Origin: Variimorphobacter saccharofermentans
GTDB taxonomy: Bacteria; Bacillota; Clostridia; Lachnospirales; Lachnospiraceae
DNA length: 64,000 nucleotides
Direction: 5' to 3'
Assembly: GCF_014174405.1 (NCBI RefSeq)
Contig: NZ_JACEGA010000001.1
Span: 2,819,001 to 2,883,000, forward strand
Positions within the stretch are counted from its first letter, which is position 1, and every line of letters starts with the position of its first letter. This document shows, piece after piece, positions 6,342-27,194 of this stretch. The notes under the pieces are model-generated. The model ran no database searches and was not told the DNA's origin. It saw only the letters and a program-made list of their open reading frames with translations. The translations under genes and the position numbers were made by a program.

Positions 6342-6486
6342 AATAATATCCAAGCCTTTCATGAACAAAACTTTTACTTACAAAATATGTGTCAAATATC
6401 ATCCGATTAATAATTCATTGAATATTAGCGTATTTATATTCGCTAATATTCATTTCACTATCCAGATCATACCTTTGACGTCGCAA

Positions 6487-7191: not shown

Positions 7192-7222
7192 CTATCTCTC
7201 CTCCATATCTCACAAATGATTC

Positions 7223-7369
7223 GGTAATTGCGAAACTTAATAATTGTGGCCATTGCATATACTGTGGATACATGTTCCGAAGCAAACCATAGTGGAAGGA
7301 GCGGGTTTGCGCAGAAATATGTATCTGCTGTATATGCAATCAAGATATCTTCAGAGTTTCGCAATTGCC
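7223..7369. repeat. Long imperfect palindrome (foldback element C)
   Basis: This intergenic stretch folds back on itself. The outer arms share AATTGCGAAACT, the middle arms share TTGCATATAC.G..GATACAT, and the inner arms share GCAAACC, around a loop of about 15 bases. Parts of the arms resemble the repeats at 27.3 and 31.8 kb (TGCA..A.C.GT..A..TGT and its partner). Because of the symmetry, open frames on both strands begin with a similar peptide; neither is a real gene. Confidence 0.75.
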
Positions 7370-7381
7370 TATCACAAATAG

Positions 7382-8473
7382 TTATTTCGGCAGTTCATGG
7401 AATGCATCCAGCGCCCTTCGAACAACACCATCCATGTTGTAGTACCGATATTCCGCCAGTCGCCCGATAAAGATAACATTAGGTTCCTTCTTCATGTCTT
7501 CTTCATATAAAGCAAACTGCTTCTTATGCTCCTTCGTCGGGAACGGATAATAGGGTTCTCCCTCAGCACAGGGAAATTCCTTGCTGATTGTTGTCTTAGG
7601 ATGCTTCTGCCAGGTCAACTGTTTATACTCCGTAATCCTTGTATAATCATAATCATTTGGATAATTTACTACAGGTGCCTCTTGGAAGCGTTCCGTGTCA
7701 TAGGTTTCAAACAAAAACCTCACACTGCGATAGGCCAGTCTTCCATGTTTATAATCAAAGTATTCATCCGATGCACCGGTATAGATTAGAGTGTTATAGG
7801 TAATCTGATCCTTTATCTCTCTGAAATCTGTATTCAGCATTACTTTAATCTTATTGTTTTCAATCATTTTTTCACACATCTTCGTATATCCATGCTTAGG
7901 CATTCCCTGGTATTTGTCAGCAAAATACCGGGTATCACGATTATATCGAATGGGTATACGGGAAATAACGGAGGTGTCCAGCTCACCCGGATCAATGCCC
8001 CATTGTTTCCTGGTATAGGACTCAAAAATCTTTTCATAGATATCCTGTCCAACCTTACTTAGAGCCACATCCTTGCTAGTCTTAATATCCTTAATATCAA
8101 CTGCTTGCTTTTTCAAGAATTCTTCTACCTGGGAGCAATTCAGGTTCAGATTATATAACTGATTGATGGTCTCCACTGTAATCGGCATAGGAACCAGATT
8201 ACCATCTACATAGGTCAATACCCTGTGCCAAAAATCATTCCATTTTGTAAAGCGAGATAAATACTCGTAGACCTCTCGATCATTTGTATGAAAAATATGC
8301 GGACCGTAATTATGAATTAAAATACCATCCTCATTATAGGAATCATAAATGTTACCCCCAATATGGCTTCGCTTTTCAATGATTAACACAGTTTCTTTTC
8401 GTTCATTTGCTATTCTTTCTGCCATTGTTAATCCTGCAAGCCCAGCACCTACAATTACATAGTTAAACTTCAT
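7382..8473 (-). CDS. glf: UDP-galactopyranose mutase
   Basis: This 363-residue flavoenzyme interconverts UDP-galactopyranose and UDP-galactofuranose, the donor for galactofuranose in surface polysaccharides. The N-terminal FAD-binding Rossmann motif VIVGAGLAGLTMAERIA is clear, followed by EKRSHIGGNIYD and the family signature HNYGPHIFHTN. The conserved IPIRYNRDTRYFADKYQGMP and the C-terminal GRLAEYRYYNMDGVV (FAD and substrate binding) are present. Length matches the family (about 367). The start MKFNYVIVG is preferred; the upstream ATG four codons earlier sits almost on top of GGAAAGG. Neighbouring glycosyltransferases suggest they use the galactofuranose donor. Confidence 0.96.
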   Translation of the reverse strand: MKFNYVIVGAGLAGLTMAERIANERKETVLIIEKRSHIGGNIYDSYNEDGILIHNYGPHIFHTNDREVYEYLSRFTKWNDFWHRVLTYVDGNLVPMPITVETINQLYNLNLNCSQVEEFLKKQAVDIKDIKTSKDVALSKVGQDIYEKIFESYTRKQWGIDPGELDTSVISRIPIRYNRDTRYFADKYQGMPKHGYTKMCEKMIENNKIKVMLNTDFREIKDQITYNTLIYTGASDEYFDYKHGRLAYRSVRFLFETYDTERFQEAPVVNYPNDYDYTRITEYKQLTWQKHPKTTISKEFPCAEGEPYYPFPTKEHKKQFALYEEDMKKEPNVIFIGRLAEYRYYNMDGVVRRALDAFHELPK

Positions 8474-8567
8474 TTGCTTTACCATACCTTTCCGGTAATT
8501 ATTGTTATTCTTTCCACATTTTATTAGTATACCAAGTATAGATCAATTTTACTAGTCCAACCTACAA

Positions 8568-10628: not shown

Positions 10629-11602
10629 TTCTTCTCACCGCCCCTAATGCATTTTGATATAAGATACCTGGGTCTGTTCTTCACCTCTTTATAGATTTTA
10701 GTCAAATAGATACCAATCATCCCCAGACTGACCATAATTGAACTGCCGATAAGAAGCTGAAGCAGAATCACCGTAGTAAATCCATCCATGGCCTTGCCAG
10801 TGAACTTCATATACAGAGTCTGTATTCCTAATACGATGGTCCCCACAAACATAATAATCCCCAGAATAGTAATGCAATGAAGAGGAACGGATGTATACGA
10901 TGTTATGGCATTCACAGCGAGCCGTATCAGGCGAAGAAATGACCATTTGGACTTACCATTCACTCTCTCTGCCACATCAAATTCTATCTGCTTTCGATCA
11001 TAACCCAGCCAGGCTGACATTCCACGGAAGAATATCGCACGCTCCGGCATCTCTTTCCAGGCATCTACCACTCTTCTGTCCAGAAGCTTAAAGTCGGAGG
11101 CCCTTCCCAAATTAATATCAGCAGTGCGATAAATCACATAATAGAAGAACTTCGCGCACAGGTGATAGATTAGATTTTCTTTTCCTCTTGACTTTTTGAC
11201 GCCCTCAACGACATCATAATCACCCTCTCGCCAAGCTTGTACCATCTCAGGAATGAGTTCCGGTGGATGCTGTAAGTCTGCATCCATAACAAGAACCATA
11301 TCACCGTCGGCATACTCCAATCCCGCACAGAGTGCAGATTCCTTTCCGAAATTCCTGCTCAGTCGTAATGCTGATATATGGACGTTGTCCTTTGCCATCT
11401 GACTGATCTCACTCCAGGTATTATCTTTTGACCCGTCGTCTACTAAGATAAACTCATAGCAAAGATTGTTTTTTATTAAGACAGATTCAATCACTCCAAT
11501 GGAACTTCGAATGTGACTCCCCTCCTGATAAATAGGGATAACCAAAGATAATTTAGATTCCAAGGATCTATTTTGTTTTCTGTCAATTTCATTAATTACC
11601 AT
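10625..11602 (-). CDS. Family 2 glycosyltransferase, bactoprenol-glycosyltransferase (GtrB/DPM) type
   Basis: The 325 residues comprise an N-terminal GT-A domain with LVIPIYQEGSHI, FILVDDGSKDNTW and VLVMDADLQHPPEL (the DxD motif), a QxxRW-like region, and two C-terminal membrane helices (about 235-300). This is the architecture of GtrB/YfdH/ArnC enzymes, which transfer a hexose or aminosugar from a nucleotide donor to undecaprenyl phosphate at the inner face of the membrane. It is co-transcribed and overlaps by four bases with the GT-C-like gene downstream, which would use the lipid-linked sugar outside the membrane. The start is supported by AGAGG about seven bases upstream. Confidence 0.93.
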   Translation of the reverse strand: MVINEIDRKQNRSLESKLSLVIPIYQEGSHIRSSIGVIESVLIKNNLCYEFILVDDGSKDNTWSEISQMAKDNVHISALRLSRNFGKESALCAGLEYADGDMVLVMDADLQHPPELIPEMVQAWREGDYDVVEGVKKSRGKENLIYHLCAKFFYYVIYRTADINLGRASDFKLLDRRVVDAWKEMPERAIFFRGMSAWLGYDRKQIEFDVAERVNGKSKWSFLRLIRLAVNAITSYTSVPLHCITILGIIMFVGTIVLGIQTLYMKFTGKAMDGFTTVILLQLLIGSSIMVSLGMIGIYLTKIYKEVKNRPRYLISKCIRGGEKK

Positions 11603-12331: not shown

Positions 12332-15300
12332 TTACTCCAGGTCAAATAATCCTCGCCTTACCAGGGTAACTCTTCGATCTGAAATAATGGTTTTTGACGA
12401 ATCCTTTCCATAAGTAAGTGTGACTCGAATTAAGGTAGTCTTCCCCTTGTTCTCGTAATTCAGATTGTCCAAGGGTACCTCAATATAATACTCCACTTCG
12501 CTATCCAGCTTCGCAACCGTAGCATTGGTGTCAAGCCGCCTGGTATCATACCCCTGTTTACTCAGAGCTCCGTTTATCGGATCCACTGTAAAGTATTCCA
12601 CCGTTAGTTTTTTATTGTAAAAGATATTATAATCCTTTACACTAAACTTTAATTTCTGACAGGTTCCCATTCCGGTCAGTTCTTTTCCAAAGGACTGCTC
12701 CGTATTATAGATATCATAGTCCACATATACATAATAATTTCCGTCAGCATCCATGGACTTATTAGAATTCGTCACTTCAATCTCCAGATTCTTGGCTGCT
12801 GCTGAATATGCTGCGAGTAGGGTATTAATAAACAGCTTCATTTCCATAACCGCACTGGAGTTGCCAGGATTCTCAGAAATTGCTGAATGTCCCATTCCTG
12901 AGTAAATAATGTTACCTTTACTATATATGTAATAATTGTTTCGAGCATCATTAGGTGTGCTGCTGTAGATCCCTGCTCCTTTCCCTGAGGCATCCTTGAT
13001 ATTGTCAGACAGGCAGTACCATACCACGATATCATCACATTCCAGGTCCAATTGGTAATACTGGCTATGGGTAACAGCCACTTGAAATCTCCTATCAATC
13101 TCATATGGATATAGGGTCAGTTGTCCATTATTTACCCTCGTTACATATTGATCATCAATATTCCGATCCGTAGGAAAATTGGGGTTGCTAAAGTATTGTC
13201 CTGGTAACGACATGCGATTGAGCATGGTATCACTATAGCCTTGTATATACCCATCCGTTGTATAATCTTTGCCCGCTGCAATCCTCTGTTCCTCGTTCCC
13301 ATAGGAAGTCACACCAAATCGATCCATACCTAGGGTTTCACGAAACCGCTTATTGATTTGGTATCCCCAATGGGGATAATCCGTCGACGAGTAGATACCC
13401 GAGGGTAGATTGCAGAAGGAAGTGGTATCATGGGTAAACAGTACCGTATTTCCCTTATCGATATATTCCTCCAGATTCCGTAACGCATTTTCATTGGCGA
13501 TATCCTTATATATATCTGCAAAGCCCAGAATCAGTATATCTACATTGAATAAACCATCGTGATCATAATCCTCCCATTCATAGCTTCCATATGCATTCTT
13601 GATATTATTTGATATTTCGTTACGATCCTCAAGGATATATCGATAGGTTCCATTCCCGCACAAAGCTTCATAATCGCTAATAGTGATTGACTTCATATGC
13701 AATATATAATCATTTAGGTTTTCCGTGTATTTTTGGAATAACGAATGCTCTGCTAAGTTAAGATTATTACCACTGTCAGCCATAATTTGAAGTACATTAA
13801 TATGTATTTTACTTGCTTCTGCTCCCTTTAAAGCACAATAATTAATCATACTATCCCGGTTATCGGTATTCGATTGATCGATTATTTCAAGCTTCCAGGG
13901 AATGATGCCATAGAAGCTCTCCTCCAGATTATGGTATAGGGTATAATTGACTCCTGCCTTCAGATTATTCTCGGCTACCGCATAACCATCCTCATCCAAT
14001 AGTATTAATCCACCGACATTCTCCATTAATGGTTCATATTTGCCATCTGCATTCATATCAATGTATAGATTTACCCGATAAGTCTTATTCGTGTCACTAT
14101 GATCCTCAATATAGAATCGATATCGCAGTGTCCTATAACTGGAATCAGAACCATTCACATAAATCTTATCATCCGTCAGTCCACTATATTTGGTTTTATC
14201 CCGGTACACAATCGGATAGCAGTTCTCTTCCATAACAGAGCCGTCCGTTTTCCCGAATACAATACGGCACTTCGGTGTAGTCAGTACCTGTTCTAATTGC
14301 TTCACATTCAAATTATCTTCATAGAATAAGCAAGGACTTGCAATGCCCGCTAATGAATAGATGATTGAATTGCTATCTATTTTCATTGTGTTCAGAGCTC
14401 CGGCTCCGGATAAAAAGCCCTTTGCAAGTACTACCGGATAGCCAGCCTCCATAAACTCAATTAATTCCTTCTTCTTTACTGCTGTGATGTCATTGCCCGC
14501 AAACCGGTAATAATCCTCCGTGTCTCCATTGCCGAAGACTCCTCGGAGTTCCTTACTTGCCTTAATACGATCTCCTACATGCAAATAAATCTTCCCATTC
14601 AGTGAGGAATCATTATAGATGGTTTTACCACCGGAATTCTTTCGCATTGCTCCATCCTTTAATCCGAATAAAATCATATCATAGGTACTTCGTAAATCCT
14701 CCACCTTACCGACGAACTCCCGTGAGGTCATGGTAGTTATTTTTACTTGTCCGGTATAATGCGGAAAGAAAGAGGCAAAATACTGTCTGGCATAGGCGCT
14801 TCCATTATAGGAATCCTCATCTGGTGATTTCTTCGGGTTCCAATACTCCTCCGTACCATCCCAGATAAAGTCATTACAGGGTTCAATTTCAAGAACATGC
14901 AGCTTTGATTGATGATAGACAGGGACTTTCCTGCCAAATAGCAAATAATAGATTGCTTCTGCCGGAGTGAGACTGGTGGGTCTTACTCCCCCCCGATCTT
15001 CCTGATAGAAGTCAAATGCCTCCGTATTATAGAAATTCTCATTGATGTTATGCTCTAAAATTATCTGTGTAATGCTGTTATCTCCATTATACGCATAAAA
15101 CCCATGTCGAATGCTTTTATGGGTTTTATCCCCATCATAGGTGAAAAAGCGGTATCCAAGCTCCTCCATCGCTTTTGTTCCATTCAGAGAAGTATAGTTT
15201 TCAAATAAATGATAGGGTAATAGCGTATGAATATTCCATACTGCTGCGTCATCCGCTGTTTTTCTGGTATAATATTCCTTATTTTTATCCTCCGCAAGCT

Positions 15301-16336
15301 CCAGGAAATATCCTGTGGTCATAGGTATTCCGGTATCTACCATTGGATTTCCATTGGTGTCCTTAACCTTAATTGCTTTTACTCGTCCCGTTACGATATA
15401 TTCATTATAAAATCTGCTTGGCTCCATTAATTGCATAACCATGTAGAGCTTTGCTGCGTTAGTGGTATAACCGGTGGCACTGATGCTACCCACCTTCGTT
15501 CCATTGCTGTAATACTTCACAGGTTCGATACTGCTTCCATAGCTTGTATCGGTTGAAAAGGTAGTTACATCAAAGATAATCGGAGCAGGATCGTCACTCA
15601 TAACTGCCTTTTCCAGAAGCCTTACTGTTGTTTCCCAGGTTAGATCATTGGAATAGAAATTCTTTGGCTCATCCTCAATTTTTTTATCTGGATGATAGGT
15701 TTCCCATATCCCAACAAAGCTATCTCCATAATGTGTCTTGGGATTCAGGTATAATAAATCCGCCCTATCAATTAATCTGTAGTTCTCCGGATGATTCAAT
15801 TCATCCGGCGTTATAGTTATTACTTCGATTTCATAATTCTTTATTTGATCCTCCGGAACTCCCAGAGCATACTTTAAAAAGCTATTCTTACTGGTGAAAT
15901 AATTCCGATAACGCACATACAATCCGGTTCCGGAATTATATTGCCATTCTCCCGGTCCATTTCCAATCACATCACCCTCTCCCAGGGACTCGGTATATTC
16001 TTCCTTCCATTCACAGGTCATTCCCTGTGTGGATGCCAGTGTTCCACCAGCAAAGGTATCAAAAGCAGCCTTCTCCAGGGGGATGGGTTCACATCCTTCT
16101 ATCATATACCCAATTTCAGCATAGCCTTCATATGGGACAATTTCCAGTATGACAAAGGGATTTGTTATACTTCCCTTTTTCCCTTCCTCGGGAAAATCAG
16201 GAATTGTGGTATCGGATCCAAAATAGGAAGCAGCCTTTACATGGTTTTCATTCTCCCTTTGTCCTAGAAACCCTGTTGTTCCTACTATGAGAACAACCAA
16301 TAAAATGCCCAGGATACCGTATAATACCTTTTTCAT
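12332..16336 (-). CDS. DUF5057 family large extracellular protein, last gene of the type IV pilus operon
   Basis: This 1334-residue protein starts with a signal/anchor segment (MKKVLYGILG followed by a hydrophobic helix) and then a conserved entry ITNPFVILEIVPYEGYAEIGYMIEGCEPI-like region at about 50-85, which I recognise as DUF5057. The rest is predicted extracellular and rich in beta structure and Tyr/Asn. A region at about 965-1190 (VDILILGFADIY, GNTVLFTHDTTSF) resembles a glutamine-amidotransferase/ThuA-like fold. A beta-rich tail follows. AAAGGAGG five bases upstream fixes the start. It begins 16 bases after the last minor pilin and is transcribed with it. I infer it is an anchored or pilus-associated surface protein (adhesin or substrate-binding). 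Its biochemical role is unknown. Confidence 0.8.
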   Translation of the reverse strand: MKKVLYGILGILLVVLIVGTTGFLGQRENENHVKAASYFGSDTTIPDFPEEGKKGSITNPFVILEIVPYEGYAEIGYMIEGCEPIPLEKAAFDTFAGGTLASTQGMTCEWKEEYTESLGEGDVIGNGPGEWQYNSGTGLYVRYRNYFTSKNSFLKYALGVPEDQIKNYEIEVITITPDELNHPENYRLIDRADLLYLNPKTHYGDSFVGIWETYHPDKKIEDEPKNFYSNDLTWETTVRLLEKAVMSDDPAPIIFDVTTFSTDTSYGSSIEPVKYYSNGTKVGSISATGYTTNAAKLYMVMQLMEPSRFYNEYIVTGRVKAIKVKDTNGNPMVDTGIPMTTGYFLELAEDKNKEYYTRKTADDAAVWNIHTLLPYHLFENYTSLNGTKAMEELGYRFFTYDGDKTHKSIRHGFYAYNGDNSITQIILEHNINENFYNTEAFDFYQEDRGGVRPTSLTPAEAIYYLLFGRKVPVYHQSKLHVLEIEPCNDFIWDGTEEYWNPKKSPDEDSYNGSAYARQYFASFFPHYTGQVKITTMTSREFVGKVEDLRSTYDMILFGLKDGAMRKNSGGKTIYNDSSLNGKIYLHVGDRIKASKELRGVFGNGDTEDYYRFAGNDITAVKKKELIEFMEAGYPVVLAKGFLSGAGALNTMKIDSNSIIYSLAGIASPCLFYEDNLNVKQLEQVLTTPKCRIVFGKTDGSVMEENCYPIVYRDKTKYSGLTDDKIYVNGSDSSYRTLRYRFYIEDHSDTNKTYRVNLYIDMNADGKYEPLMENVGGLILLDEDGYAVAENNLKAGVNYTLYHNLEESFYGIIPWKLEIIDQSNTDNRDSMINYCALKGAEASKIHINVLQIMADSGNNLNLAEHSLFQKYTENLNDYILHMKSITISDYEALCGNGTYRYILEDRNEISNNIKNAYGSYEWEDYDHDGLFNVDILILGFADIYKDIANENALRNLEEYIDKGNTVLFTHDTTSFCNLPSGIYSSTDYPHWGYQINKRFRETLGMDRFGVTSYGNEEQRIAAGKDYTTDGYIQGYSDTMLNRMSLPGQYFSNPNFPTDRNIDDQYVTRVNNGQLTLYPYEIDRRFQVAVTHSQYYQLDLECDDIVVWYCLSDNIKDASGKGAGIYSSTPNDARNNYYIYSKGNIIYSGMGHSAISENPGNSSAVMEMKLFINTLLAAYSAAAKNLEIEVTNSNKSMDADGNYYVYVDYDIYNTEQSFGKELTGMGTCQKLKFSVKDYNIFYNKKLTVEYFTVDPINGALSKQGYDTRRLDTNATVAKLDSEVEYYIEVPLDNLNYENKGKTTLIRVTLTYGKDSSKTIISDRRVTLVRRGLFDLE

Positions 16337-16352
16337 TGCAGCCTCCTTTAGG

Positions 16353-16880
16353 TTATGGACTAACCAGTTCATTTCGAAATTTTACATTTCTTGCAACATT
16401 GAATTCTTTTGAGTTATTCTGAAATGTGACTGTTAAGGTGATCTTTTTTTGATTCAACAATTCTTCTTTGCTATCAGGATATAAGCTGACATCCGACACA
16501 TACTTACCCATAAGATTTTCATCCTCTGCATAGGCAATGGAAGCAAGGCTTGTAACTGATCCCGTACTCAGGTTCGGTATGTAATACAGCTGGCTGTTTA
16601 ATTTATCCAGGAATACCACATCACAGACAGTGGAATGATAGATTACCAATGCCTTGGTATTGGCATCGATATTCTGACATTCCACCCAGTTCGCTTCCAA
16701 CATCATATCAAACAGTTGATTCATCACAGTTTGTGATTCCATCTGTAGATCCGTTTCTTCACTTGCATAGGAATAGCTCCGAGAATTTGTTACCAAGAAT
16801 GATATGACAATGGTTACAACTATCGTTGTAACAAACATACCAACGACTAATTCGATTAAAGTATATCCCTTATTATTCAT
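16353..16880 (-). CDS. Minor pilin, GspJ/PilW-like prepilin
   Basis: This 175-residue protein has a class III prepilin leader MNNKG followed by YTLIELVVGMFVTTIVVTIV, with Glu at position +5 and a hydrophobic assembly helix. The C-terminal part is a beta-rich pilin head. A long helix with ETDLQMESQTVMNQLFDMM resembles the GspJ/PilW/ComGF group that sits in the pilus tip complex. It requires a prepilin peptidase, which is not encoded in this window. It lies 16 bases upstream of the DUF5057 gene and 57 bases after the preceding pilin, within the same operon. Confidence 0.85.
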   Translation of the reverse strand: MNNKGYTLIELVVGMFVTTIVVTIVISFLVTNSRSYSYASEETDLQMESQTVMNQLFDMMLEANWVECQNIDANTKALVIYHSTVCDVVFLDKLNSQLYYIPNLSTGSVTSLASIAYAEDENLMGKYVSDVSLYPDSKEELLNQKKITLTVTFQNNSKEFNVARNVKFRNELVSP

Positions 16881-16937
16881 AAACGATCCCCTTTGAGTTT
16901 CTCTTCACTTACAATATACTTTTTAACCTATAGAGGA

Positions 16938-17462
16938 TTATTCCTCGATATAGTGTTTTCCAGTTTTTGTTACCATAAATATGGTTGTTGTATTGCTCCT
17001 GGAAGAAATGATAATTTGCTTCCAGGTAGTTCGAAATGCTCCACTATCAGGCTTCATACTGATTAATAGACAAGGATTATCCCGATTGATTGTAAAGATA
17101 TTCGTTCCGTCTAACCGATCCGAATATTGTATCGTAATATTACTATCCGCTATCAGATTTGAAGTAATGGTATCTGCATCCGTTCTCCATGTACTCTCTG
17201 TCAACTCACCAGAGGAAGTTACCATATTCAGATAATAATTCTTTTCTAAATCATTCCATTCAATTACTACATAATGGTATTTCATTCCCTTGCTAAGGGT
17301 TTGCAATCTTAGTTTATTAAGAATAACATCAATTTCCTTTGCACATTTTTTTGTATCTGCAAACACTAGCAAATTCAAACTAATAAATGCTCCCCCGATT
17401 AAAATGGAAGAGATTGCAATGACAATAATAACTTCAATCAGAGAAAAGCCTCGATCATTCAT
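16938..17462 (-). CDS. Minor pilin, GspH/FimT-like prepilin
   Basis: This 174-residue protein has the short leader MNDRG then FSLIEVIIVIAISSILIGGA, a textbook type III signal with Glu+5. The GspH/FimT character comes from the following KKCAKEIDVILNKLRLQTLSKG helix and the beta-rich remainder. Minor pilins of this type prime pilus assembly together with GspI, J and K analogues. All three of these are neighbours here. The ATG start is preceded by AAGGAAGGA. Confidence 0.85.
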   Translation of the reverse strand: MNDRGFSLIEVIIVIAISSILIGGAFISLNLLVFADTKKCAKEIDVILNKLRLQTLSKGMKYHYVVIEWNDLEKNYYLNMVTSSGELTESTWRTDADTITSNLIADSNITIQYSDRLDGTNIFTINRDNPCLLISMKPDSGAFRTTWKQIIISSRSNTTTIFMVTKTGKHYIEE

Positions 17463-17476
17463 TCTTCATTCCTTCC

Positions 17477-19594
17477 TTAATTCTTTTTCCAGTTTTCATA
17501 GTGAATCAAGTTCGATACATTGATATAGCCCTTGTCCGACGTGGAGGTAAAGGCACGAAAATACCTAGCTACATCAGCGTCCTGAGATAATATTCGGCTT
17601 ACCAGATCGGATGCCGCTGTGATTTGGGCTGCACTCAAATCAATGGTTTTGTTCGATATAATTAAGCCAGTAAAATTCCGTTCAACGCTAACATCTCCGG
17701 TTGCTATAATAATTCCCTTCTTTCCGGATTGATCATAATGATATGTTCCACCTGCCTCATTATCGATAATGATTACATAATAATGATCTGTTCCAATGAG
17801 AGCTTCCTTTTCCAATACAATCCCACCAGGGTTTCCCATGGCATCTGCTCTGATTTTATCGACATCCAGAATATTTTCAAAGACAATATCCTCGGATAAA
17901 TCTCCTATTCCTTTTTGATGTTTTGTCAAGGTAGCAGTTAGATGCTGATACTCATTCCGATAGTGGTTCGTAAAGGTGGCATTAATTCCCCTTATCAGCT
18001 TCAGCTCCGAATCATAAAGCATCAAATTACCGGCTGTTATATAGGCTCCCGGTGTATTATTGATTATTATCCCTTCCACAGGAAATCCGTTATATATTCG
18101 TTCCGGATAACATAGCATATAATTTTTATAGTATGTAGTCGCCAATTCCTTGGATTTAAAATTCAAATAATAATAAACCACATTGTCGTTGGATCCAAAT
18201 TTATAAAAGGCCTTTTTTACTGGTTGAAGTTCATTTAAATAATACATTAGACGGCACTCGTCCGCAGAAAGAGCTGAGGTATGAAACACTTCAGCATCAT
18301 GGGGAATCGACACCAAAGTATCTGTATTGGTTATGGTATCGTAATAAGCTACATATTCGTCCCAAGTCACCGGATTATGCCCAATGGCAATATATTCGCT
18401 GGGAAGAAGATACACATTCTGACAGCCCTTTAATACCAGAGATTCCCCAGTCGGAATATTGCAATTAGAGTTCGTCCCTGCACCATAACGATCATCTGTA
18501 TCATAGTTAACTGCACCTGAACCGTCATCCAGTGAGATACTGGCTCTCCCTGCCAGGTATAACTTGTTTAATCCGGATAGATCCAGTTTTGCATGAATCG
18601 CATTAATTATGATTGCACTATTTGCCTCAGAGGTCATTCCGTCACTATAGCCATAATACTCTCCTTCCATGGTTACCTTGCTTCTCTTTGCCTCTAATGC
18701 CAAATCATCCATAATATAGCATTTACCCGTTACCTTGAAGATCGTATCTCCTGACATATCCACAGCCTTATTGGTCTGAGTGGTAACCAGATTCGATGCC
18801 CATACCTCAGTATCGGATCCCTGTATTATCAAGCTCCCTCGATCCCTTACAATGATATCCCCTTTTGTAATGATACTGCTTCCAGATATGAAAAGACTTT
18901 TCCCGTTACCAGTCTGTATTCCTTTACTACCAGCATATAGATTGCCCTGTATGGTATGATCCGTGAATTTTGCCACAAGGGCTTGATCTGCAATCAGTGC
19001 ATAATCCTGATAGGGTGCCAGGGAGGATATTTCTTCCTGTTCTTCTGGAAAGTTTATTCGAATATCCGTAGTAATCGAGGTGGAATAACCCTCCGTTATG
19101 CAGACAACCCGTAATCCCTTTATCGTAATATATTTATTGGATGAAGCAGTATCAAGAATCGCAGTTCCCTGTACCTGTGCTCCATCAGCAGTCGGATTTA
19201 ATTTCTTCGTTTCTTTTAGATAACTGTTTAACTTGAGCAGAGAGATTTCTCCGGTAACGGGACTCACAGCCAGGCTCACCTTCATCTCTTCAATAAAACG
19301 ATTATGAAATAAACTTTTACGCATTGCCGGATTCTTCTTTGAATATTGCAGCATCACACTTTGATAAGCTTCAGATAATGCTTTTGATACATCTTCAACC
19401 AGTCCTACTCTAATCTCATCCAGTGCTGCCTCCGCTGTATAAAAGTTGTATTTGGACTTCCGGTCCACTGTCTTCATTTCCATATTGATCAGAACAGAAC
19501 GAACAATGATCGATCCCAGTACCATAACAAAAGCGAAGGCAATCACAACCATAATCAAAGAAGCCCCACGATTATTCAGTTTATGAGCTTTCAT
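17477..19594 (-). CDS. Oversized PilX/GspK-like minor pilin (705 residues)
   Basis: The N-terminus NNRG followed by ASLIMVVIAFAFVMVLG is a prepilin-like segment that has Met instead of Glu at position +5, as in GspK-type pilins, which lack this residue and cap the pseudopilus tip. The next helix SKYNFYTAEAALDEIR is the PilX/GspK hallmark. The remaining about 600 residues form a very large extracellular head with repeated beta-helix-like segments (GDIIVRDRGSLIIQG, KVTMEGEYYGYSDG, LDLSGLNKLYLAGRASI), unlike the roughly 200-330 residues of usual family members. This head may be an adhesive tip. It overlaps the preceding gene by four bases (ATGA). Confidence 0.85.
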   Translation of the reverse strand: MKAHKLNNRGASLIMVVIAFAFVMVLGSIIVRSVLINMEMKTVDRKSKYNFYTAEAALDEIRVGLVEDVSKALSEAYQSVMLQYSKKNPAMRKSLFHNRFIEEMKVSLAVSPVTGEISLLKLNSYLKETKKLNPTADGAQVQGTAILDTASSNKYITIKGLRVVCITEGYSTSITTDIRINFPEEQEEISSLAPYQDYALIADQALVAKFTDHTIQGNLYAGSKGIQTGNGKSLFISGSSIITKGDIIVRDRGSLIIQGSDTEVWASNLVTTQTNKAVDMSGDTIFKVTGKCYIMDDLALEAKRSKVTMEGEYYGYSDGMTSEANSAIIINAIHAKLDLSGLNKLYLAGRASISLDDGSGAVNYDTDDRYGAGTNSNCNIPTGESLVLKGCQNVYLLPSEYIAIGHNPVTWDEYVAYYDTITNTDTLVSIPHDAEVFHTSALSADECRLMYYLNELQPVKKAFYKFGSNDNVVYYYLNFKSKELATTYYKNYMLCYPERIYNGFPVEGIIINNTPGAYITAGNLMLYDSELKLIRGINATFTNHYRNEYQHLTATLTKHQKGIGDLSEDIVFENILDVDKIRADAMGNPGGIVLEKEALIGTDHYYVIIIDNEAGGTYHYDQSGKKGIIIATGDVSVERNFTGLIISNKTIDLSAAQITAASDLVSRILSQDADVARYFRAFTSTSDKGYINVSNLIHYENWKKN

Positions 19595-20928
19595 TCTTCA
19601 TTCTCCTTTGTCAAGTGGAAGGAAGCATAGCAATTTGAAAAATCTCCTATAGATATCGCTCCTGCTTCAAATATCTCCACTTTCATGCGGTAAATCCGGT
19701 CCTTAGGACTCTGTCTAGATATCATATGATAATCCGTAATACAGGATAGAGATGCCGTATCCAGTTCACCGGTTGATAAATTGGTATATAGGGAGGTTAT
19801 AGCCATGTTTTGCTCATCCTTACGAATGGACAGATTGGCACTGCCTGTCCCTGACTGCTTTACTAACACAAGCTTTGTATTGGTACCATTATTTCTTATA
19901 TTTAAAATATCCTTAAGGACTAATCCGGATGGTGTATAAAAGATATAGATCAGGCAGTCATGATCTCCTCCATTGGAAATGCTATAGGTTTCTTCATATA
20001 ATTCATAAGTCACCTTTTCCTCACTTCCATCATGGTTCACATCCAGATGACAGGTGTATTCTATCTTACAGGTAATCATAACAGAGGTGCTTCCACTTAG
20101 CCTCTGTACGGAAATCTGTATATCTTTTTGAATTGCTTCCTTTATCTGCTCCAATGAATATTTGGCTACTGGCACTGGCGATGGCAAGCCCAATGATAAA
20201 AGACTTTCCAGGTAAGCCTGATAGGCTTCCTGTAGATTCACAAAGTATTCAATTGCCTGCTGATCTGTGGATCTGGAGTTATCATAAACTGCACTTTCTG
20301 TATCATCCGACCAGGTGGTTGTAAACCCTTCCAGATCCAGTACTGTAACTCCCTTCTGATGAAGCTCTGTTAATTGCGGCATATTATAATTATTCATTGT
20401 ATCCGGATATTTCATGCTGTCTCGGTAGGGTGTGGCATCTATTGTAATGAAAGCGTCAAATTCTTTATCGCCCTCTGAGATACCCTCAATTCCCAGGTAA
20501 TAGGTGCTTCTACCAATCGGAGGTGCATATCGGTATACCGATGGCATACCACTGATAATAATACTGCTTTGACCATCTCCCGGAATTGTTCTGACGTAGG
20601 CTCCGCCTGTATTGATATATTCCCCATACCCACCATCTGCGAAGGCTTTCATCTGATAAGCATCTGGATATCCGATTAAGTTGTTTTGAATCAATGAGAA
20701 TTCCTTAACACCATTAAACTGCATCAGAATATCCTCATTGCTGCTATTCTTTATGGCTTCAATCAGATTTTGCCCCAGATTAGTAGCCTTCTGACGAATT
20801 CTCGATTGTGTATTAACCTTTGCTGCAGAAATATAACAGTTCAAAGCAGGCAGCATCAGCAAAGCAAGAATAACGATACTTACTATTACCTCTATCAGGG
20901 AAAACCCTGCATTTTTTTCTTTCCTCAA
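19591..20928 (-). CDS. Minor pilin, GspI/PilV-like prepilin (445 residues, TTG start)
   Basis: The mature start is preceded by a leader ending KEKNAG and then FSLIEVIVSIVILALLMLPA, with Glu+5. The RIRQKATNLGQNLIEAIKN helix is the GspI/PilV type. The head is a beta-rich domain of about 400 residues, larger than normal for this class. I place the start at a TTG codon at 20928 because GGAGG is five bases upstream and this gives a normal 9-residue leader. An upstream ATG at 20964 would run through that ribosome binding site and make a 21-residue leader. It overlaps the GspK-like gene by four bases. Confidence 0.85.
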   Translation of the reverse strand: MRKEKNAGFSLIEVIVSIVILALLMLPALNCYISAAKVNTQSRIRQKATNLGQNLIEAIKNSSNEDILMQFNGVKEFSLIQNNLIGYPDAYQMKAFADGGYGEYINTGGAYVRTIPGDGQSSIIISGMPSVYRYAPPIGRSTYYLGIEGISEGDKEFDAFITIDATPYRDSMKYPDTMNNYNMPQLTELHQKGVTVLDLEGFTTTWSDDTESAVYDNSRSTDQQAIEYFVNLQEAYQAYLESLLSLGLPSPVPVAKYSLEQIKEAIQKDIQISVQRLSGSTSVMITCKIEYTCHLDVNHDGSEEKVTYELYEETYSISNGGDHDCLIYIFYTPSGLVLKDILNIRNNGTNTKLVLVKQSGTGSANLSIRKDEQNMAITSLYTNLSTGELDTASLSCITDYHMISRQSPKDRIYRMKVEIFEAGAISIGDFSNCYASFHLTKENEE

Positions 20929-20983
20929 TCCTACCTCCATTTGTCTGCCTAAGTTGCAGGCCATACTATCCTAAGATCTCATA

Positions 20984-21763
20984 TCAGTTTTTCATACTTG
21001 CAGGCATTTCTATGGTATCAAATATATTCTCCGTACCGATATTCACTCCTGCAATCTCCGTCTCCTCAATCTCTTTCTGAAAGCCCAGTAAATGAAACAT
21101 ATTAATCTTCATAGTTCCATTCAGATTTCCGGTCTGAAGGTCATAGGCCAGATCAATCTCTCTTATATTCTTGCGTTCCTCATGCTTATTAATAAAATCA
21201 ATACATTTTTTTAATCCCTCATAGTTCACCTTAAAATCTATGGACACGATGGAATTATAACCGATAATGGTATTCTCATTGGCCAAGGACTCGGAGACAT
21301 TATCCAGCGAAGCTGATTGTTCACCTGCTACTAGATTCATCTGCTCTGTCTCAGCGTCAATCGTTTCCTCATTGACATTCTCCTGACCCCTAGTATCCTT
21401 ATAAATAAATTCTGGATTTGAAAATCCTATTACACTGATATCAATACCGCTTTCCTGCTCTAAATTCTTTATGAACAGAATCGTTTTATCATAACTTGCT
21501 CCTGTTCCAAAACGATCCGCTATTGTATTTATCTCGTTTCTCATTGTCTCATTCATCACCTTAGTTTCCTCTAGCTTTGCTTTTTTTGATAACAGCTCGG
21601 ACTCTATTGCTTCTAGTCTCCCTATCTCTTCCTGTATCTCACTAGTTTGTTCTTCATTTTTTAAATAGATAAAACGATAGGAAGCAAATACAAGTAACAT
21701 GGCCCCTAATAGCATAAGCAGTCGAATATCCCGATTTGATATTTTTATTTTGGATATACTCAT
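20984..21763 (-). CDS. pilO: PilO-like type IV pilus inner-membrane assembly protein
   Basis: The 259 residues have a short cytoplasmic N-terminus, one membrane helix (RLLMLLGAMLLVFASYRFIY, residues about 14-33), a coiled coil (about 36-85: TSEIQEEIGRLEAIESELL and similar), and a ferredoxin-like C-terminal domain containing the VNYEGLKKCIDFINKHEERK motif typical of PilO/GspM. PilO links the cytoplasmic PilM ring to the growing pilus in the membrane. The start overlaps the end of the pilM-pilN gene by four bases, and GGGAGGGGG lies upstream. Similarity across this family is low, so the call rests on architecture and position. Confidence 0.85.
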   Translation of the reverse strand: MSISKIKISNRDIRLLMLLGAMLLVFASYRFIYLKNEEQTSEIQEEIGRLEAIESELLSKKAKLEETKVMNETMRNEINTIADRFGTGASYDKTILFIKNLEQESGIDISVIGFSNPEFIYKDTRGQENVNEETIDAETEQMNLVAGEQSASLDNVSESLANENTIIGYNSIVSIDFKVNYEGLKKCIDFINKHEERKNIREIDLAYDLQTGNLNGTMKINMFHLLGFQKEIEETEIAGVNIGTENIFDTIEMPASMKN

Positions 21764-23220
21764 TTATTTTCCCCCTCCCTTTCCGGAGAAGTGTATCTTG
21801 CGGTTATTATGTAATCCAAGGTCACCGTGCCTACTTCATCTGTTTTCATGGTGATTTGCTCCGTCCTTACATCCGTAATCAATGGAATGGTGTTTAATTG
21901 TAGAAATGTCATGGCTGCCGTATCAATATTATCCATAGACACGTCGATTAACACATCCTGGTCATTACTACGAAATGAATGGATGGTTACTTGAGTGGGT
22001 AATTTTTTTTCCAACTCATCAATGAGAGTATTTAATTCCTCCGTCCTGCTATAACAGTTTTCCTCAATTGCTGATATTTCATTTTGAAGCTTCTTTAGCT
22101 TTTCATTTTCTTCATAATACGCTTTTACATATTCCATTCCAGCAATGGATTTCTCAAGTCGCCTCTTTTCTGCTCTCGCCTGAGTAATATTCACGGTCGA
22201 TAGAGTAATTAGTGTCAGGGAAACCGCTACTGCAAAGGCTCCAATTATTATTAGCTCCTTGTGCATGCTTCGCTTTGTTTCCAGTTCCATATATTTCTTC
22301 GGTACCAGACCCAGGGGAGCAAATGCAGCACCTATGCATTCAAGATAATCACTTTGTATCGATTTATCTGTCAGCGTATCCTGATAGAAATTCACACATC
22401 GTAATGTATTGATAAACTTAATATCTATGTTAATCTCTTTTCGAAATAAATCTTCTATTCCTGTTTTCTTAGCTCCGCTCCCAGCCAGATAAATCGATTC
22501 AAAATGTCGATCCTCCTCCTTCGCAGAATAATATTCCATTACGCGAATCAGGTTGCTGATCAGGTATTGAAGCGACTGTGCTTCATCACTTCCTGTACCA
22601 TAGGCAATTGTACGATGGAGCTTCACAATTCCGTTATTTAATATGTATACATAGGTATTCTTTTCATTGATCTGTACATACAGGTTGGTACCCTTTGTAT
22701 GAATCTGTCTCTGTATTACCTGAAGGATACTATTGCTAAGATAATCCACAGAAACAATGTTAAGCTTTAGTATTTTCGCTATCTCATAGTAGGGATGAAA
22801 CAGATTATTATGAACTGCGATAACCAGCAAACGATACTGTTTGTTCTGCATTTTTTCCAGAACAATATAGGATATGACATAATCCGATACGTTAACAGGA
22901 AAATAGTCAGAGGCTCCAGCATTTACGTAATCTTGAATGTCCTTTTGCTTCATCATTGGTATAACAATCTCATGACTGGCAATTCTGGAAGAGGAAATTG
23001 TGAAAATCACATCCGTCACGTTAATATTGGTTACCTTCAGCATCTCCTTCAATGCCTGTGCCATTCTATCCTTATTCAGAATAAATCCATCCTCCATACA
23101 GGCATAAGGTGTATCAAAGGCTTGTGTATAGTAGACCTTTGGATGCTTCCTCTGATAATCCATTACACATAATTTTGTTTTCAGTTCCCCAATTTCAATA
23201 CTCAATACCCTTTTTCCCAT
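21760..23220 (-). CDS. PilM-PilN fusion protein of the type IV pilus
   Basis: Residues 1 to about 330 form an actin-like PilM/FtsA-type ATPase domain (RVLSIEIGELKTKLCVMD for the first phosphate loop; SRIASHEIVIP; a second phosphate/adenosine region IYLAGSGAKKTGIEDLF). A membrane helix follows (ELIIIGAFAVAVSLTLITL, about 336-354), then a coiled coil and a ferredoxin-like periplasm-side domain with PTQVTIHSFRSNDQDVLIDV, which is PilN. In most bacteria PilM and PilN are separate, and PilN's short N-terminal peptide docks on PilM; here they are covalently joined. GGGAGG supports the start. It lies between pilA and pilO. Confidence 0.88.
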   Translation of the reverse strand: MGKRVLSIEIGELKTKLCVMDYQRKHPKVYYTQAFDTPYACMEDGFILNKDRMAQALKEMLKVTNINVTDVIFTISSSRIASHEIVIPMMKQKDIQDYVNAGASDYFPVNVSDYVISYIVLEKMQNKQYRLLVIAVHNNLFHPYYEIAKILKLNIVSVDYLSNSILQVIQRQIHTKGTNLYVQINEKNTYVYILNNGIVKLHRTIAYGTGSDEAQSLQYLISNLIRVMEYYSAKEEDRHFESIYLAGSGAKKTGIEDLFRKEINIDIKFINTLRCVNFYQDTLTDKSIQSDYLECIGAAFAPLGLVPKKYMELETKRSMHKELIIIGAFAVAVSLTLITLSTVNITQARAEKRRLEKSIAGMEYVKAYYEENEKLKKLQNEISAIEENCYSRTEELNTLIDELEKKLPTQVTIHSFRSNDQDVLIDVSMDNIDTAAMTFLQLNTIPLITDVRTEQITMKTDEVGTVTLDYIITARYTSPEREGENK

Positions 23221-23260
23221 TGGCGCCTCCCTCATCATACCAACGCTTCTATTTGTAATG

Positions 23261-23332
23261 TAATCCCACCTCCTTAGAGAAACATATCACCCGTTGAAAG
23301 AAATTATATGTTTGATAAAGAGGTGGGATTTA
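23261..23332 (-). promoter_or_regulatory. Stem-loop between the major pilin and pilM-pilN
   Basis: On the minus strand ATCCCACCTC pairs with GAGGTGGGAT, and the pairing extends inward through AAACATAT/ATATGTTT with small bulges. It starts right after the pilA stop and has no U-run, so a full terminator is unlikely. It could lower read-through or protect the pilA mRNA 3' end, giving more major pilin than assembly proteins. One arm holds AAGGAGGTG, a perfect anti-ribosome match, kept double-stranded. Confidence 0.65.
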
Positions 23333-23341
23333 ACGAAAGGA

Positions 23342-23788
23342 TTAATTTGTTACCGGGCCAATATCAGTTGTTCCTGCAGCTGAACCTATGTAAACTGATA
23401 ATTTCCCTGTTGATTCCTCATAATCAACATAGAGGGTCCCCGCTTTACCCTTTTTCGACTTGGCTTTTGCTTTGATATCTGCTACCGTATCCATATCACT
23501 GTCTAACAGTTTTTTGGCATTTTCCAGCGGCTTGCCTGCACCAATGACATCATCCAAAGGCTTATCATCAATGGTAGACGGTGCACTATCCTTTTCTGCA
23601 ATCGCCGTCTGAACCGCAGTAAATACCGTATGTACAATCTGTATGTCCTTCGCCTCTCTGGATGCCTCCACATACTTGAATACCTGCGGTGCTATGGTTC
23701 CAACCAGTATGGCCATAATCGCCATTACAATAATCAGTTCCACCAGTGAAAAACCTTTGTTGTTCTCCTTCCAGTCCTTCATTCTCAT
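23342..23788 (-). CDS. pilA: Major type IV pilin (prepilin)
   Basis: This is a prepilin of about 148 residues with leader MRMKDWKENNKG, then FSLVELIIVMAIMAILVGTIAPQ, with Glu+5 for subunit docking. The head is small, with KAKAKSKKGKAGTLYVDY and a Gly-rich end, and no cysteine pair. Its size and position between the assembly genes suggest the main pilus subunit. The start is placed at the second of two adjacent ATG codons, seven bases after GGGAG; the first (23791) is equally possible in practice and adds one Met. A long stem-loop follows the stop. A prepilin peptidase must come from elsewhere. Confidence 0.9.
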   Translation of the reverse strand: MRMKDWKENNKGFSLVELIIVMAIMAILVGTIAPQVFKYVEASREAKDIQIVHTVFTAVQTAIAEKDSAPSTIDDKPLDDVIGAGKPLENAKKLLDSDMDTVADIKAKAKSKKGKAGTLYVDYEESTGKLSVYIGSAAGTTDIGPVTN

Positions 23789-23849
23789 CATCCTTCTCCC
23801 TTCATTTATGATTTGATAAAACTTTGCTCTCATTAATAGAACAAAGCCC

Positions 23850-25067
23850 TTATCCTAATTTGTCAAAGCCCTGGTACATAGTAATCATGGGCTGAAACAT
23901 GGCGATTAATAGAAACCCGACTACAATCGCTAATACAATAATCATAAAAGGCTCCAGTACCGCTATTAAGGATCCTGTAATGCTTTCCACCTCATCCTCA
24001 TAATACTCCGCGATTTTATCCAGCATTGAGTCCGTTGTACCGGATTGTTCTCCGATTCTAATCAGATGACTTACCATTGGCGGAAACCGATGAACCGAAT
24101 CCAGAGTATCCGCTAGTGACACCCCTCGTTCCACTTCCTTGATCGAATCTGTGATTCCCTGTCCGATTATGATGTTACTCATACTTTTTGCTGTAATCTC
24201 CAAAGCCATCGTGATCGGTATTCCGGCTGACAGCATTGTACTTAACGTTCTTCCAAACCTTGCTGAAGAGGATTTGATAATCAAATCTCCAATGAGAGGG
24301 AGCTTTAATACTGTCCTGCTTAAATACTCATTTCCCTGTTTGGAGCTCTTCAGTAGTTTAAACCCTATAATCAGAACCAATATGAATAATAAGAACACCA
24401 CCCAATTCTTTGATACAACATGACTTATTTTCAAAACCGCCGTAGTGACAGCAGGCATTTCCACTTCCATCTCATCAAACATACTCATAAAATTCGGTAT
24501 TACCTTTATCAGCATTAATGCTACAACGATGACAGAGACGAAAAGAACAATTACAGGATAAATTGTTGCTTTTTTTATGACTGCCTTCAATTTTGCTTCC
24601 TTTTCAAAATGCTCTGCCATACGAAGTAAGGAGTTCTCAAAGCTGCCCGATATCTCACCTGCTTCCATCATATTGATAAATAAGATTGGAAATATATTGG
24701 TATGTGCACTCATTGCCTGTGATAAAGTATCACCTTTCTCAATACTTGCCTTCGTCTTCTTGATTGCCTCTTTTAATAACTTATTCTCCGTATCACTACT
24801 AAGCATGTCCATCGCATGTACGATACTCACTCCTGCTGTAAGAATACTGTAAAACTGTCGGCAAAACACTGCCAGGTCCTTGGATTTTACAGCGCTGATA
24901 AGATCCAGATTAATATCCTTTGTCAGTACATTCTGTTCAAGCACCTGTATTGGCATCTTTCCTTCTGCTTTCAGAGCCGTAATTAGTTTATCTTCGCTGG
25001 CAGCTTCCATTTTTCCTTTTTTCTTTTTCCCACTTTCATCTATATAGATATATTCAAAGGTTGCCAC
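23850..25067 (-). CDS. pilC: PilC/GspF inner-membrane platform protein of the type IV pilus
   Basis: This 405-residue protein holds two copies of the GspF domain (about 65-185 and 270-390), each ending in membrane helices. Typical segments are FCRQFYSILTAGVSIVHAM, MMEAGEISGSFENSLLRMAEHFEKE and, in the second copy, RFGRTLSTMLSAGIPITMALE and MIRIGEQSGT-like LIRIGEQSGTTDSML. The N-terminus MATFEYIYIDESGK is standard for the family. I set the start at GTG 25067, which has AAGGAGG eight bases upstream; a longer frame adds 14 residues through that site. PilC couples the PilB ATPase to pilin insertion. It follows its own promoter. Confidence 0.95.
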   Translation of the reverse strand: MATFEYIYIDESGKKKKGKMEAASEDKLITALKAEGKMPIQVLEQNVLTKDINLDLISAVKSKDLAVFCRQFYSILTAGVSIVHAMDMLSSDTENKLLKEAIKKTKASIEKGDTLSQAMSAHTNIFPILFINMMEAGEISGSFENSLLRMAEHFEKEAKLKAVIKKATIYPVIVLFVSVIVVALMLIKVIPNFMSMFDEMEVEMPAVTTAVLKISHVVSKNWVVFLLFILVLIIGFKLLKSSKQGNEYLSRTVLKLPLIGDLIIKSSSARFGRTLSTMLSAGIPITMALEITAKSMSNIIIGQGITDSIKEVERGVSLADTLDSVHRFPPMVSHLIRIGEQSGTTDSMLDKIAEYYEDEVESITGSLIAVLEPFMIIVLAIVVGFLLIAMFQPMITMYQGFDKLG

Positions 25068-25164
25068 CTGCCATTCCTCCTTATATGCGAATTTAGTATC
25101 ATATTGCACCTTAATTTTTAACGCTGTCGTAAATGGTAATTTTTGTAAATCAATTTATGGTTCT

Positions 25165-25193
25165 ATTTTAGCTTACATATTTTTCCATGTCAA
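25165..25193 (-). promoter_or_regulatory. Sigma-A promoter upstream of pilC
   Basis: Minus strand TTGACA, 17 bases, TAAAAT. It lies in the 211-base gap between pilB and pilC, so genes from pilC onward can be transcribed independently of pilB. Confidence 0.7.
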
Positions 25194-25278
25194 TATGTGG
25201 AGTATGTTTTATACAAAAAAAGTTCCTAATTCTATAATTTTGTTAATAATTGGTAACATATATCAATCCCTGTAATTC

Positions 25279-26985
25279 CTATACCTCTGCTATCGCAATT
25301 CGTCTCATTTCAGATAATGATGTAACCCCATCCAACACCTGCTGCCTTGCATTTACATACAAAGTACTCATTCCTTCAGACAATGCAGCCTGATGGATCT
25401 CATCTGAGGAGCCTTTTCGATTAATAATACTTCGTATCTTCTGTGTAACCGGCATAATTTCATAAATACCGATTCTGCCCAGATATCCAGTACCATTACA
25501 ATGAATGCAGCCTTCGGGTTTATATAGCTGCAGTTCCTCAGAATCACATCTAAGATATTCCCTTTCCTCTTTCGTAGCATAGTATCCCTTTTTGCAACCA
25601 CACAACCTCCTAACCAGGCGCTGTGCGATAACCCCGATGGTTGCATCTCCAATCAAATACGGTTCGATGCCCATATCCACCAATCGGGTAATGCTGCTTG
25701 CTGCACTATTCGTATGTAATGTACTTACCACAAGATGACCGGTTATGGATGCCTTAACAGCAATTCCGGCCGTCTCGCTATCTCTTATTTCCCCAATCAT
25801 GATGATATCCGGATCCTGTCTTAGGATTGCACGTAATGCAGTTGCGAAGGTTAAATCTGCTTTCGTATTCACTTGTACCTGATTGATTCCATCAATATTT
25901 GCTTCTACCGGATCTTCAACAGTAATAATATTTACCTCATTTTGATTCAATTCACTTAATACCGTATATAAGGTTGTAGATTTTCCACTTCCTGTAGGGC
26001 CTGTTACTAATAACAGCCCATGAGGAGTCTGAAGCAAACGATTGAATTTTATCAGATCACTATCCGTAAGCCCCAACTCTGCTTTATTGCGATTTAACAT
26101 CCTTGTCTCCGAAAGTCGCATAACAGCCTTTTCACCATAGGAGGTTGGTAGAATGGATACGCGGATATCGAACTCCTTTCGGTCTACCTCTATAGTAATT
26201 CGTCCATCCTGGGGCTTCCTTTTTTCCGCTATATCCATTCCTCCAAGAATTTTAATTCTTGCAATGATGGCAGATAATAAAGCGGATTGATAGGCTGCTG
26301 CTTCTTTTAATACCCCATCCACACGGTAACGAATTCGAACTCTTCTCTCCAATGCCTCTATATGAATATCACTGGCACGCTGCCTTACTGCTTGCTCAAT
26401 CATATTTCGTACCAGCTTGACTATGGGAGAACGATTCACCTCCAGTTTATTGTTCTCCTCTAATTCTTCCAACGCATATTGTCTCTTTTCCCATTCCATC
26501 GCATAAGAGTCTGCAATCCTTTTATTCTCTGCATTTCCATAATACTTATCAATTGCAGATTTAATGTCACAGGGTGTTGCAATAACCGGTTCAATCTGAT
26601 AATTTGTCAGGATACTCAAGTCATCAATCGCAACGATATCCATGGGATCCGCCATTGCTACACGAAGTATACTGGGAGTATCCTGATGAAAGGAAAATGG
26701 CATAACCACATACTTATCAAGAATTTCCCGTTCTGATATTAGATTGACAACCTTATCCGGGATTTTATATTCTGACAGCGTAACAAACTCTGTATGAAGC
26801 TGCTGCGTCAAAGCGCATGCTATTTCTACTTCCGACGTAATACCCATATCAACAAGGGTCTCTCCCAGTTTTTTCCCCTTGTTAAGCTTTTGCTCCTCAA
26901 GGGCCTTCTCAAGCTGTTCCGAAGTAACAACTCCGGAATCCAGCAAAATATTGCCCAGTTTTTTCTTTTCCCTAAAGTTTCCCAT
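25279..26985 (-). CDS. pilB: PilB/GspE-type pilus assembly ATPase
   Basis: This 568-residue hexameric ATPase powers pilus extension. An N-terminal MshEN domain (about 1-150, LGNILLDSGVVTSEQLEKAL) may bind c-di-GMP or contact PilM. The secretion ATPase domain has RASDIHIE, Walker A GPTGSGKST (about 325), an Asp box with ITVEDPVE, Walker B DPDIIMIGEIRD, and the His box GHLVVSTLHTN. A zinc-binding tetracysteine insert (CGC near 460, then CIHCNGTG) is the PilB/GspE type and is absent from PilT. GGAGGGG supports ATG 26985; a TTG four codons earlier overlaps it. No retraction ATPase PilT was seen in the window. Confidence 0.95.
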   Translation of the reverse strand: MGNFREKKKLGNILLDSGVVTSEQLEKALEEQKLNKGKKLGETLVDMGITSEVEIACALTQQLHTEFVTLSEYKIPDKVVNLISEREILDKYVVMPFSFHQDTPSILRVAMADPMDIVAIDDLSILTNYQIEPVIATPCDIKSAIDKYYGNAENKRIADSYAMEWEKRQYALEELEENNKLEVNRSPIVKLVRNMIEQAVRQRASDIHIEALERRVRIRYRVDGVLKEAAAYQSALLSAIIARIKILGGMDIAEKRKPQDGRITIEVDRKEFDIRVSILPTSYGEKAVMRLSETRMLNRNKAELGLTDSDLIKFNRLLQTPHGLLLVTGPTGSGKSTTLYTVLSELNQNEVNIITVEDPVEANIDGINQVQVNTKADLTFATALRAILRQDPDIIMIGEIRDSETAGIAVKASITGHLVVSTLHTNSAASSITRLVDMGIEPYLIGDATIGVIAQRLVRRLCGCKKGYYATKEEREYLRCDSEELQLYKPEGCIHCNGTGYLGRIGIYEIMPVTQKIRSIINRKGSSDEIHQAALSEGMSTLYVNARQQVLDGVTSLSEMRRIAIAEV

Positions 26986-27194
26986 AAGCCCCTCCAATAT
27001 GCCTTTTTATAAGGTTAAATTACCTCTCTCCTCAGTTGTATTAACTATATTACATCCAAATATTGTAAATTACAATAGCATTTGTTAATTATTTACAGCA
27101 TAAATACGTTCACGATCGATATATAAATCTAAAACAGAGTTTCACTTGTAAAATCCTCGAAGCTTGTTGAACAAGCTTTGCTGGTAAATAAATA

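Follow-up and report, generated by a model that had tools for sequence, protein, structure and literature searches.

A 64-kb window of the Variimorphobacter saccharofermentans genome (assembly GCF_014174405.1, contig NZ_JACEGA010000001.1; the window starts at C1:2,819,001) carries a type IV pilus operon closed by a gene for a large, predicted exported protein of family DUF5057 (PF16480). We surveyed the neighbourhood of this gene across genomes and found that DUF5057 is almost certainly a dedicated pilus component. An initial annotation of the window had proposed such a role, to be dropped should DUF5057 genes prove mostly unlinked to pilus genes; they proved mostly linked, and the possibility of a stray neighbour was ruled out by this linkage.

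A survey of 200 genomes of the host's family, one per genus, gave PF16480 in 45. We fetched 46 loci and labelled their open reading frames (ORFs) by profiles made from the window proteins and their matches; match rows outside these loci were G076:C445 (contig end) and G031:C143 and G095:C46 (below cut-off). In 39 of the 46 loci DUF5057 occurred together with GspI-, GspK- and GspJ-like pilins, PilO and PilMN, and in L056 and L079 minor pilins were seen as far as the stretch reached. DUF5057 most often directly followed the J-type pilin. Wherever a GspJ-like pilin was in view, DUF5057 shared its strand, at a distance of -40 to +563 bp (47/47 loci: 41 of the 46 and six records named Anaerocolumna, Clostridium and Lachnospiraceae). 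Some GspJ-like pilins beside DUF5057 were large, with 676 to 1145 residues (L049, L050, L053, L055, L058, L059, L062, L064, L071, L072, L080), and L053 and L064 carried a GspH-like gene between PilA and PilMN.

In a phylum sample, 7 of 398 genomes contained PF16480, including the window's own and one found earlier. DUF5057 lay beside pil genes in all five newly found genomes: one was arranged as in the window and in L098 one more gene separated the GspJ-like pilin from DUF5057. In L099, L100 and L101, from a distant family, DUF5057 and pilB pointed away from each other, and a GspK-like ORF on the other side of DUF5057 gave weak matches (E 4e-05, 1e-03 and 5e-05). The same partners thus recur in another arrangement, which argues for a shared function and not mere operon inheritance.

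The pilus operon and its retraction machinery

Genes were called from the window ORFs together with Pfam and NCBIfam library matches, as follows (window coordinates).

25279..26997, minus strand: PilB extension ATPase, MshEN and T2SSE (Pfam/NCBIfam)
23850..25109, minus strand: PilC platform protein, T2SSF in two stretches (Pfam/NCBIfam)
23342..23833, minus strand: major pilin PilA, Glu at +5 (Pfam/NCBIfam)
21760..23238, minus strand: PilM-PilN fusion (PilM_2 1.1e-09; PilN 5.6e-04, under its own cut-off)
20984..21763, minus strand: PilO, by place and size only; relatives show the same place
19591..20964, minus strand: GspI/PilV-like minor pilin, 457 residues (PilV model 2.2e-09, under cut-off)
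17477..19594, minus strand: GspK/PilX-type minor pilin, 705 residues, without Glu at +5 (sequence features and relatives)
16938..17462, minus strand: GspH/FimU-like minor pilin (Pfam/NCBIfam)
16353..16880, minus strand: GspJ/PilW-like minor pilin (Pfam/NCBIfam)
12332..16372, minus strand: DUF5057 protein, 1346 codons, 1334 residues from Met13, predicted exported (PF16480)

The ten co-directional genes of the initial annotation were all recovered at their place and strand, most with Pfam/NCBIfam support; its monoderm type IV pilus set was indeed complete in machinery and pilin classes, and its 1334-residue DUF5057 length holds when counted from Met13. PF16480 matched DUF5057 with E 4.4e-55 over residues 627-982 of 1346, while Pfam/NCBIfam gave no meaningful match for PilO. 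Three minor pilins, GspI-, GspH- and GspJ-like, carried Glu5 with library support. From PilMN to DUF5057, adjacent ORFs overlapped or lay at most 57 bp apart. All four N-methyl matches in the genome's listing fell inside this operon, so that no second such pilus was seen at that sensitivity. The promoter/terminator scan remained near chance (58 vs 55.5 and 11 vs 8.6) and the Rfam scan gave no match; sequence searches of the PDB reached E 0.24 and 0.45 at best.

No secretin was matched in the window, as initially annotated, nor across the whole genome. PilT and prepilin peptidase had also been reported as out of view; this is correct within the window, but the genome has both, side by side and some 40 kb away: pilT at C1:2,791,113-2,792,129 (477 bits) and the peptidase at C1:2,790,401-2,790,727 (65 bits with Pfam A24, nothing with NCBIfam). 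The set of PilB, PilC, PilM/N/O, class III prepilins, peptidase and PilT without secretin is that of a type IVa-like monoderm pilus, PilO being placed by position only and the K pilin motif by eye and by the residue count at +5 given below. Among 49 other genomes with DUF5057, PilT exceeded the cut-off in 48, and the remaining one had an open frame of 210 residues with a 274-bit PilT match. Loci whose stretches, ending at different places, showed PilC had a PilT-like ORF in view in 14 of 30 cases, and those showing PilA and PilMN a peptidase-like ORF in 29 of 32; the window's genome holds its pilT-peptidase pair away from the operon. The operon thus probably builds a type IVa-like monoderm pilus that can be retracted. 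A filament that extends without retraction, as initially suggested, agrees with the window itself containing no pilT, but it is contradicted at gene level by pilT here and in the relatives' genomes and is hardly credible. At C1:696862-700149 (L096) the same genome carries a second, short A24 prepilin-peptidase-like ORF of 160 residues and, close to it, a weak secretion-ATPase match, perhaps a Tad-type system. Downstream of the pilus operon, minus-strand glycan-related genes (window 4059-11602) encode a DUF2298 membrane protein, a UDP-galactopyranose mutase, an unassigned 686-residue protein and a family 2 glycosyltransferase.

The GspK-like pilin and the DUF5057 protein

The GspK-like pilin had no Pfam match and carried Met at +5, and Glu5 was present in 0 of 44 readable sequences (two more were unreadable). 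It is hence a class III prepilin without Glu5, in agreement with the initial annotation. The model of this pilin contained the following domain.

17549..19021, minus strand: beta-helix head, residues 192-682, tapirin-like fold (structure model)

The predicted head is inserted before the last strand (residues 697-704) and matched the tapirin beta-helix fold in structure comparison. A beta-rich head of roughly 600 residues had been announced: it is large and beta, but spans about 490 residues in the model. No homology to tapirins was seen by sequence up to E 10 among PDB sequences, and membership of the K pilin in the tapirin family was rejected for failing sequence homology. The entry 4wa0, titled 'possible adhesin', is what we take to be the first tapirin structure. 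Compared with tapirins of Caldicellulosiruptor (6n2b by title; accessible part of PMC7142884), the domain sits here in a pilin lacking Glu5. ComZ of Thermus (6qvi) is likewise a GspK-like pilin with a beta-solenoid inserted ahead of its last strand and, in the accessible text of PMC6561018, is argued to sit at the tip. It is there the DNA receptor of a diderm, unlike the monoderm pilus here, and its superposition on the K head was weak (root-mean-square deviation 10.8), far weaker than the tapirin match.

DUF5057 was divided as follows.

15161..16195, minus strand: module 1, residues 60-404, starting ILEIVPYE, weakly like module 2 (probability 61%, E 8e-05)
14201..14923, minus strand: module 2, residues 484-724, weakly like module 3 (probability 78%, E 1.7e-05)
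13829..14272, minus strand: beta-sandwich, residues 701-848
12788..13831, minus strand: module 3, residues 848-1195, ThuA/class-I-glutaminase-like fold (predicted structure)
12335..12349, minus strand: conserved C-terminal tail, last five residues LFDLE

Module 3 shares its predicted fold with ThuA-like and GIFT-type alpha/beta proteins (4jqs, 4e5v and IFT52 5fms). Unlike these, DUF5057 is predicted to be exported and probably has three such modules; their function is not transferred to it. The top PDB rows of Foldseek for DUF5057 were of low template-modelling score, mostly beta-sandwich parts of unrelated proteins, and the viral structure library gave nothing useful. An N-terminal hydrophobic export-type segment was present in 113 of 120 DUF5057 relatives and a wall-anchor motif in only one of the 120. 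Cut or decayed copies aside, length ranged from 1238 to 2392 residues, and some PF16480 relatives carried extra adhesion-type domains.

We then examined the C-terminus, whose conserved tail, like the tapirin-like head and the ThuA-like module, is absent from the initial annotation. The last five residues of DUF5057 read L-F-[DE]-L-[DN] or near. A loose form of this pattern covered 116 of 120 listed relatives and 49 of 51 loci, but among the other ORFs of at least 200 residues from the same loci only 5 of 487; for the strict form the counts were 92/120, 28/51 and 2/487. Since relatives and loci partly overlap and the patterns were drawn up with the sequences in view, it is the contrast with background counts that matters here and not a probability. 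Among 347 ORFs of at least 150 residues in L097-L116, nine matched a slightly different tail pattern, all nine in pil operons: DUF5057 (L097, L098), divergent DUF5057 (L102, L113, L115), an NPCBM protein (L098), a 935-residue protein (L103) and large pilins (L104, L109). The NPCBM (carbohydrate-binding) protein, exported and of 1234 residues, is encoded between the GspJ-like pilin and DUF5057 (L098:8742-12443) and ends in KLKSLD, next to KLPSLD for its DUF5057 (common KLxSLD). The 935-residue protein occupies the place of DUF5057 and ends in IKDLD; it has the string LEIVPYE near its N-terminus, as in DUF5057, and no profile similarity to DUF5057. DUF5057 of the distant family (L099-L101) ends in [DN]RY rather than LFDLD. 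Because such tails are common to DUF5057 and to the L098 and L103 proteins, which gives hints only, we tentatively consider that a C-terminus of the L-F-D-L-D type might be a docking signal by which exported non-pilins are loaded at the tip of type IV pili in monoderms, so that one filament could take up unrelated adhesive proteins in exchange; we hold this idea to be less likely than not. In a further family (L125-L130, three genomes), an exported protein follows the K pilin and was read as VWA-type from a DSSGSM motif seen by eye and a SpaC match of 1.2e-06, as if a slot after the K pilin held unrelated proteins. One of these three genomes has the operon near a GH9-CBM3-GH48 cellulase.

A profile of the tapirin-like head matched the K pilin (E<1e-10) in 50 of the 53 operons in which our own profile recognised DUF5057; of the three misses, L056 is truncated where its contig ends, while L099 and L101 belong to the distant family. 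It matched in 7 of 16 operons without DUF5057 (L103, L114 and five from other families), an association with Fisher p 3e-05 that is post hoc and confounded by descent. Over 43 loci, DUF5057 divergence correlated with that of GspK (r 0.79) and GspI (0.77), then GspJ (0.69), PilO (0.66), PilMN (0.63) and GspH (0.61). That it tracks GspK and GspI most would fit a contact with the K/I end, without proving it.

A putative tip complex, rival readings and known relatives

The machinery, the pilin classes, the genomic pilT and peptidase and the position of DUF5057 are read in the sequence; beyond them we infer an adhesive tip complex. The H, I, J and K pilins would start the filament as a complex and thereby come to lie at its tip; the K pilin, lacking Glu5, would be the cap, and its tapirin-like beta-helix may provide one adhesive face. 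Exported DUF5057 would dock on the K/I/J complex, probably via its conserved C-terminal tail, and its variable parts would be carried outward as a second, larger adhesin. PilB would extend the filament and PilT pull it back with the bound target, likely a polysaccharide or other surface glycan. We favour this scheme of a retractable pilus with K-capped tip and docked DUF5057, taken as a whole, as fairly probable, and hold a tip position of DUF5057 to be equally so; for a glycan as ligand we would put the chances slightly below even.

Several observations weigh against this scheme or its supports. L063, L068 and L077 (contig ends) had no labelled pil gene, L093 (a 29-bit PF16480 match) had no pil genes, and L067 has a 652-residue DUF5057 remnant beside PilB, PilT and PilC only; the genes between these and the remnant are missing, in apparent decay. 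A counter-sample of 15 loci with PilMN and no PF16480 match (L102-L116) was drawn from the matches listed and is not a full count. A custom profile revealed divergent DUF5057 in L102, L113 and L115, L103 has the 935-residue protein, of unclear kinship, and the remaining loci lack DUF5057. At least eight PilMN-bearing operons of the family have no DUF5057, the GspJ-like pilin being their last gene; the ORFs that follow look unrelated by eye, although the one in L106 has a lipoprotein-like start. In L114 the K head is present, but neither DUF5057 nor a fragment of it was found. The head profile derives from the window pilin's own relatives, the five non-family loci without DUF5057 were chosen for matching the K pilin alignment, and common descent confounds the coupling as well as the co-divergence. 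As to DUF5057 itself, 7 of 10 PF16480 relatives scanned had no extra domain over the cut-off, and the shared ThuA-like fold shows no function. In Pfam only the DUF5057 family itself exceeded its cut-off, and up to E 1 neither the PilY1 C-terminal domain nor VWA was matched, and the listed fold matches, from a model excluding the last 151 residues, include no PilY1 or beta-propeller. Among PilMN operons without DUF5057, L105 (6226-13653) and L109 (6073-10260) contain pilin-labelled ORFs of 2475 and 1396 residues.

DUF5057 could instead be cargo of a type II secretion-like pseudopilus, freed into the medium or wall and perhaps a ThuA-like enzyme. The H/I/J/K-type pilins are as in type II secretion systems, and the ThuA/glutaminase-like module and the rarity of wall-anchor motifs fit this as well; however, the genome has no secretin match, DUF5057 has its own export-type segment, and the near-constant PilT fits a pilus. 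Moreover, the consensus FTHDTTS lacks Cys at the presumed position of the glutaminase nucleophile. We regard cargo as improbable, and no less so a DUF5057 that remains anchored on the cell surface, serving the pilus as port, retraction stop or sensor instead of travelling at the tip: the N-terminal segment may be an uncleaved anchor and the gene is kept with the operon, but the extra adhesion-type domains and the wide length range fit outward display better. DNA binding by the tip, with a pilus serving DNA uptake, is very unlikely given the weak ComZ match, the adhesion-type domains of some relatives and the carbohydrate-binding neighbour at one locus.

The literature searched, most subscription papers lying outside it, contained no mention of DUF5057, and the matches listed for type IV pili and minor pilins of Lachnospiraceae and for PilY1 in Gram-positives or Clostridia showed no such description. 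A monoderm family thus has a single-gene candidate for a pilus-tip role, present in 45 of the 200 genera sampled, and with it a partner pilin whose head is predicted to be shaped like a known cellulose adhesin; together they make the question directly testable and provide a first functional handle on DUF5057.

Type IV pili of Streptococcus sanguinis (accessible parts of PMC6916266 and PMC10191384) are likewise monoderm, with adhesive modules on minor pilins (the modular PilB and PilC) and few genes; there PilABC replace H/I/J/K, and these parts name no separate non-pilin tip protein. The 2023 review PMC10191384, in the portion available, describes tip complexes capped by a subunit without Glu5 and discusses PilC/PilY1 for diderms. 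As far as this portion and that of PMC7541494 go, PilC/PilY1 resembles DUF5057 as a large exported non-pilin encoded with H/I/J/K-type minor pilins, with a K-type pilin lacking Glu5 and a conserved C-terminal end next to a more variable rest; DUF5057 differs by its ThuA-like module and its occurrence in monoderms. As a PilY1 family member DUF5057 was rejected, failing the sequence feature. Since the parts list is the same and DUF5057 stands in the place of PilY1, DUF5057 may, by analogy, be a monoderm counterpart of PilY1 in role.
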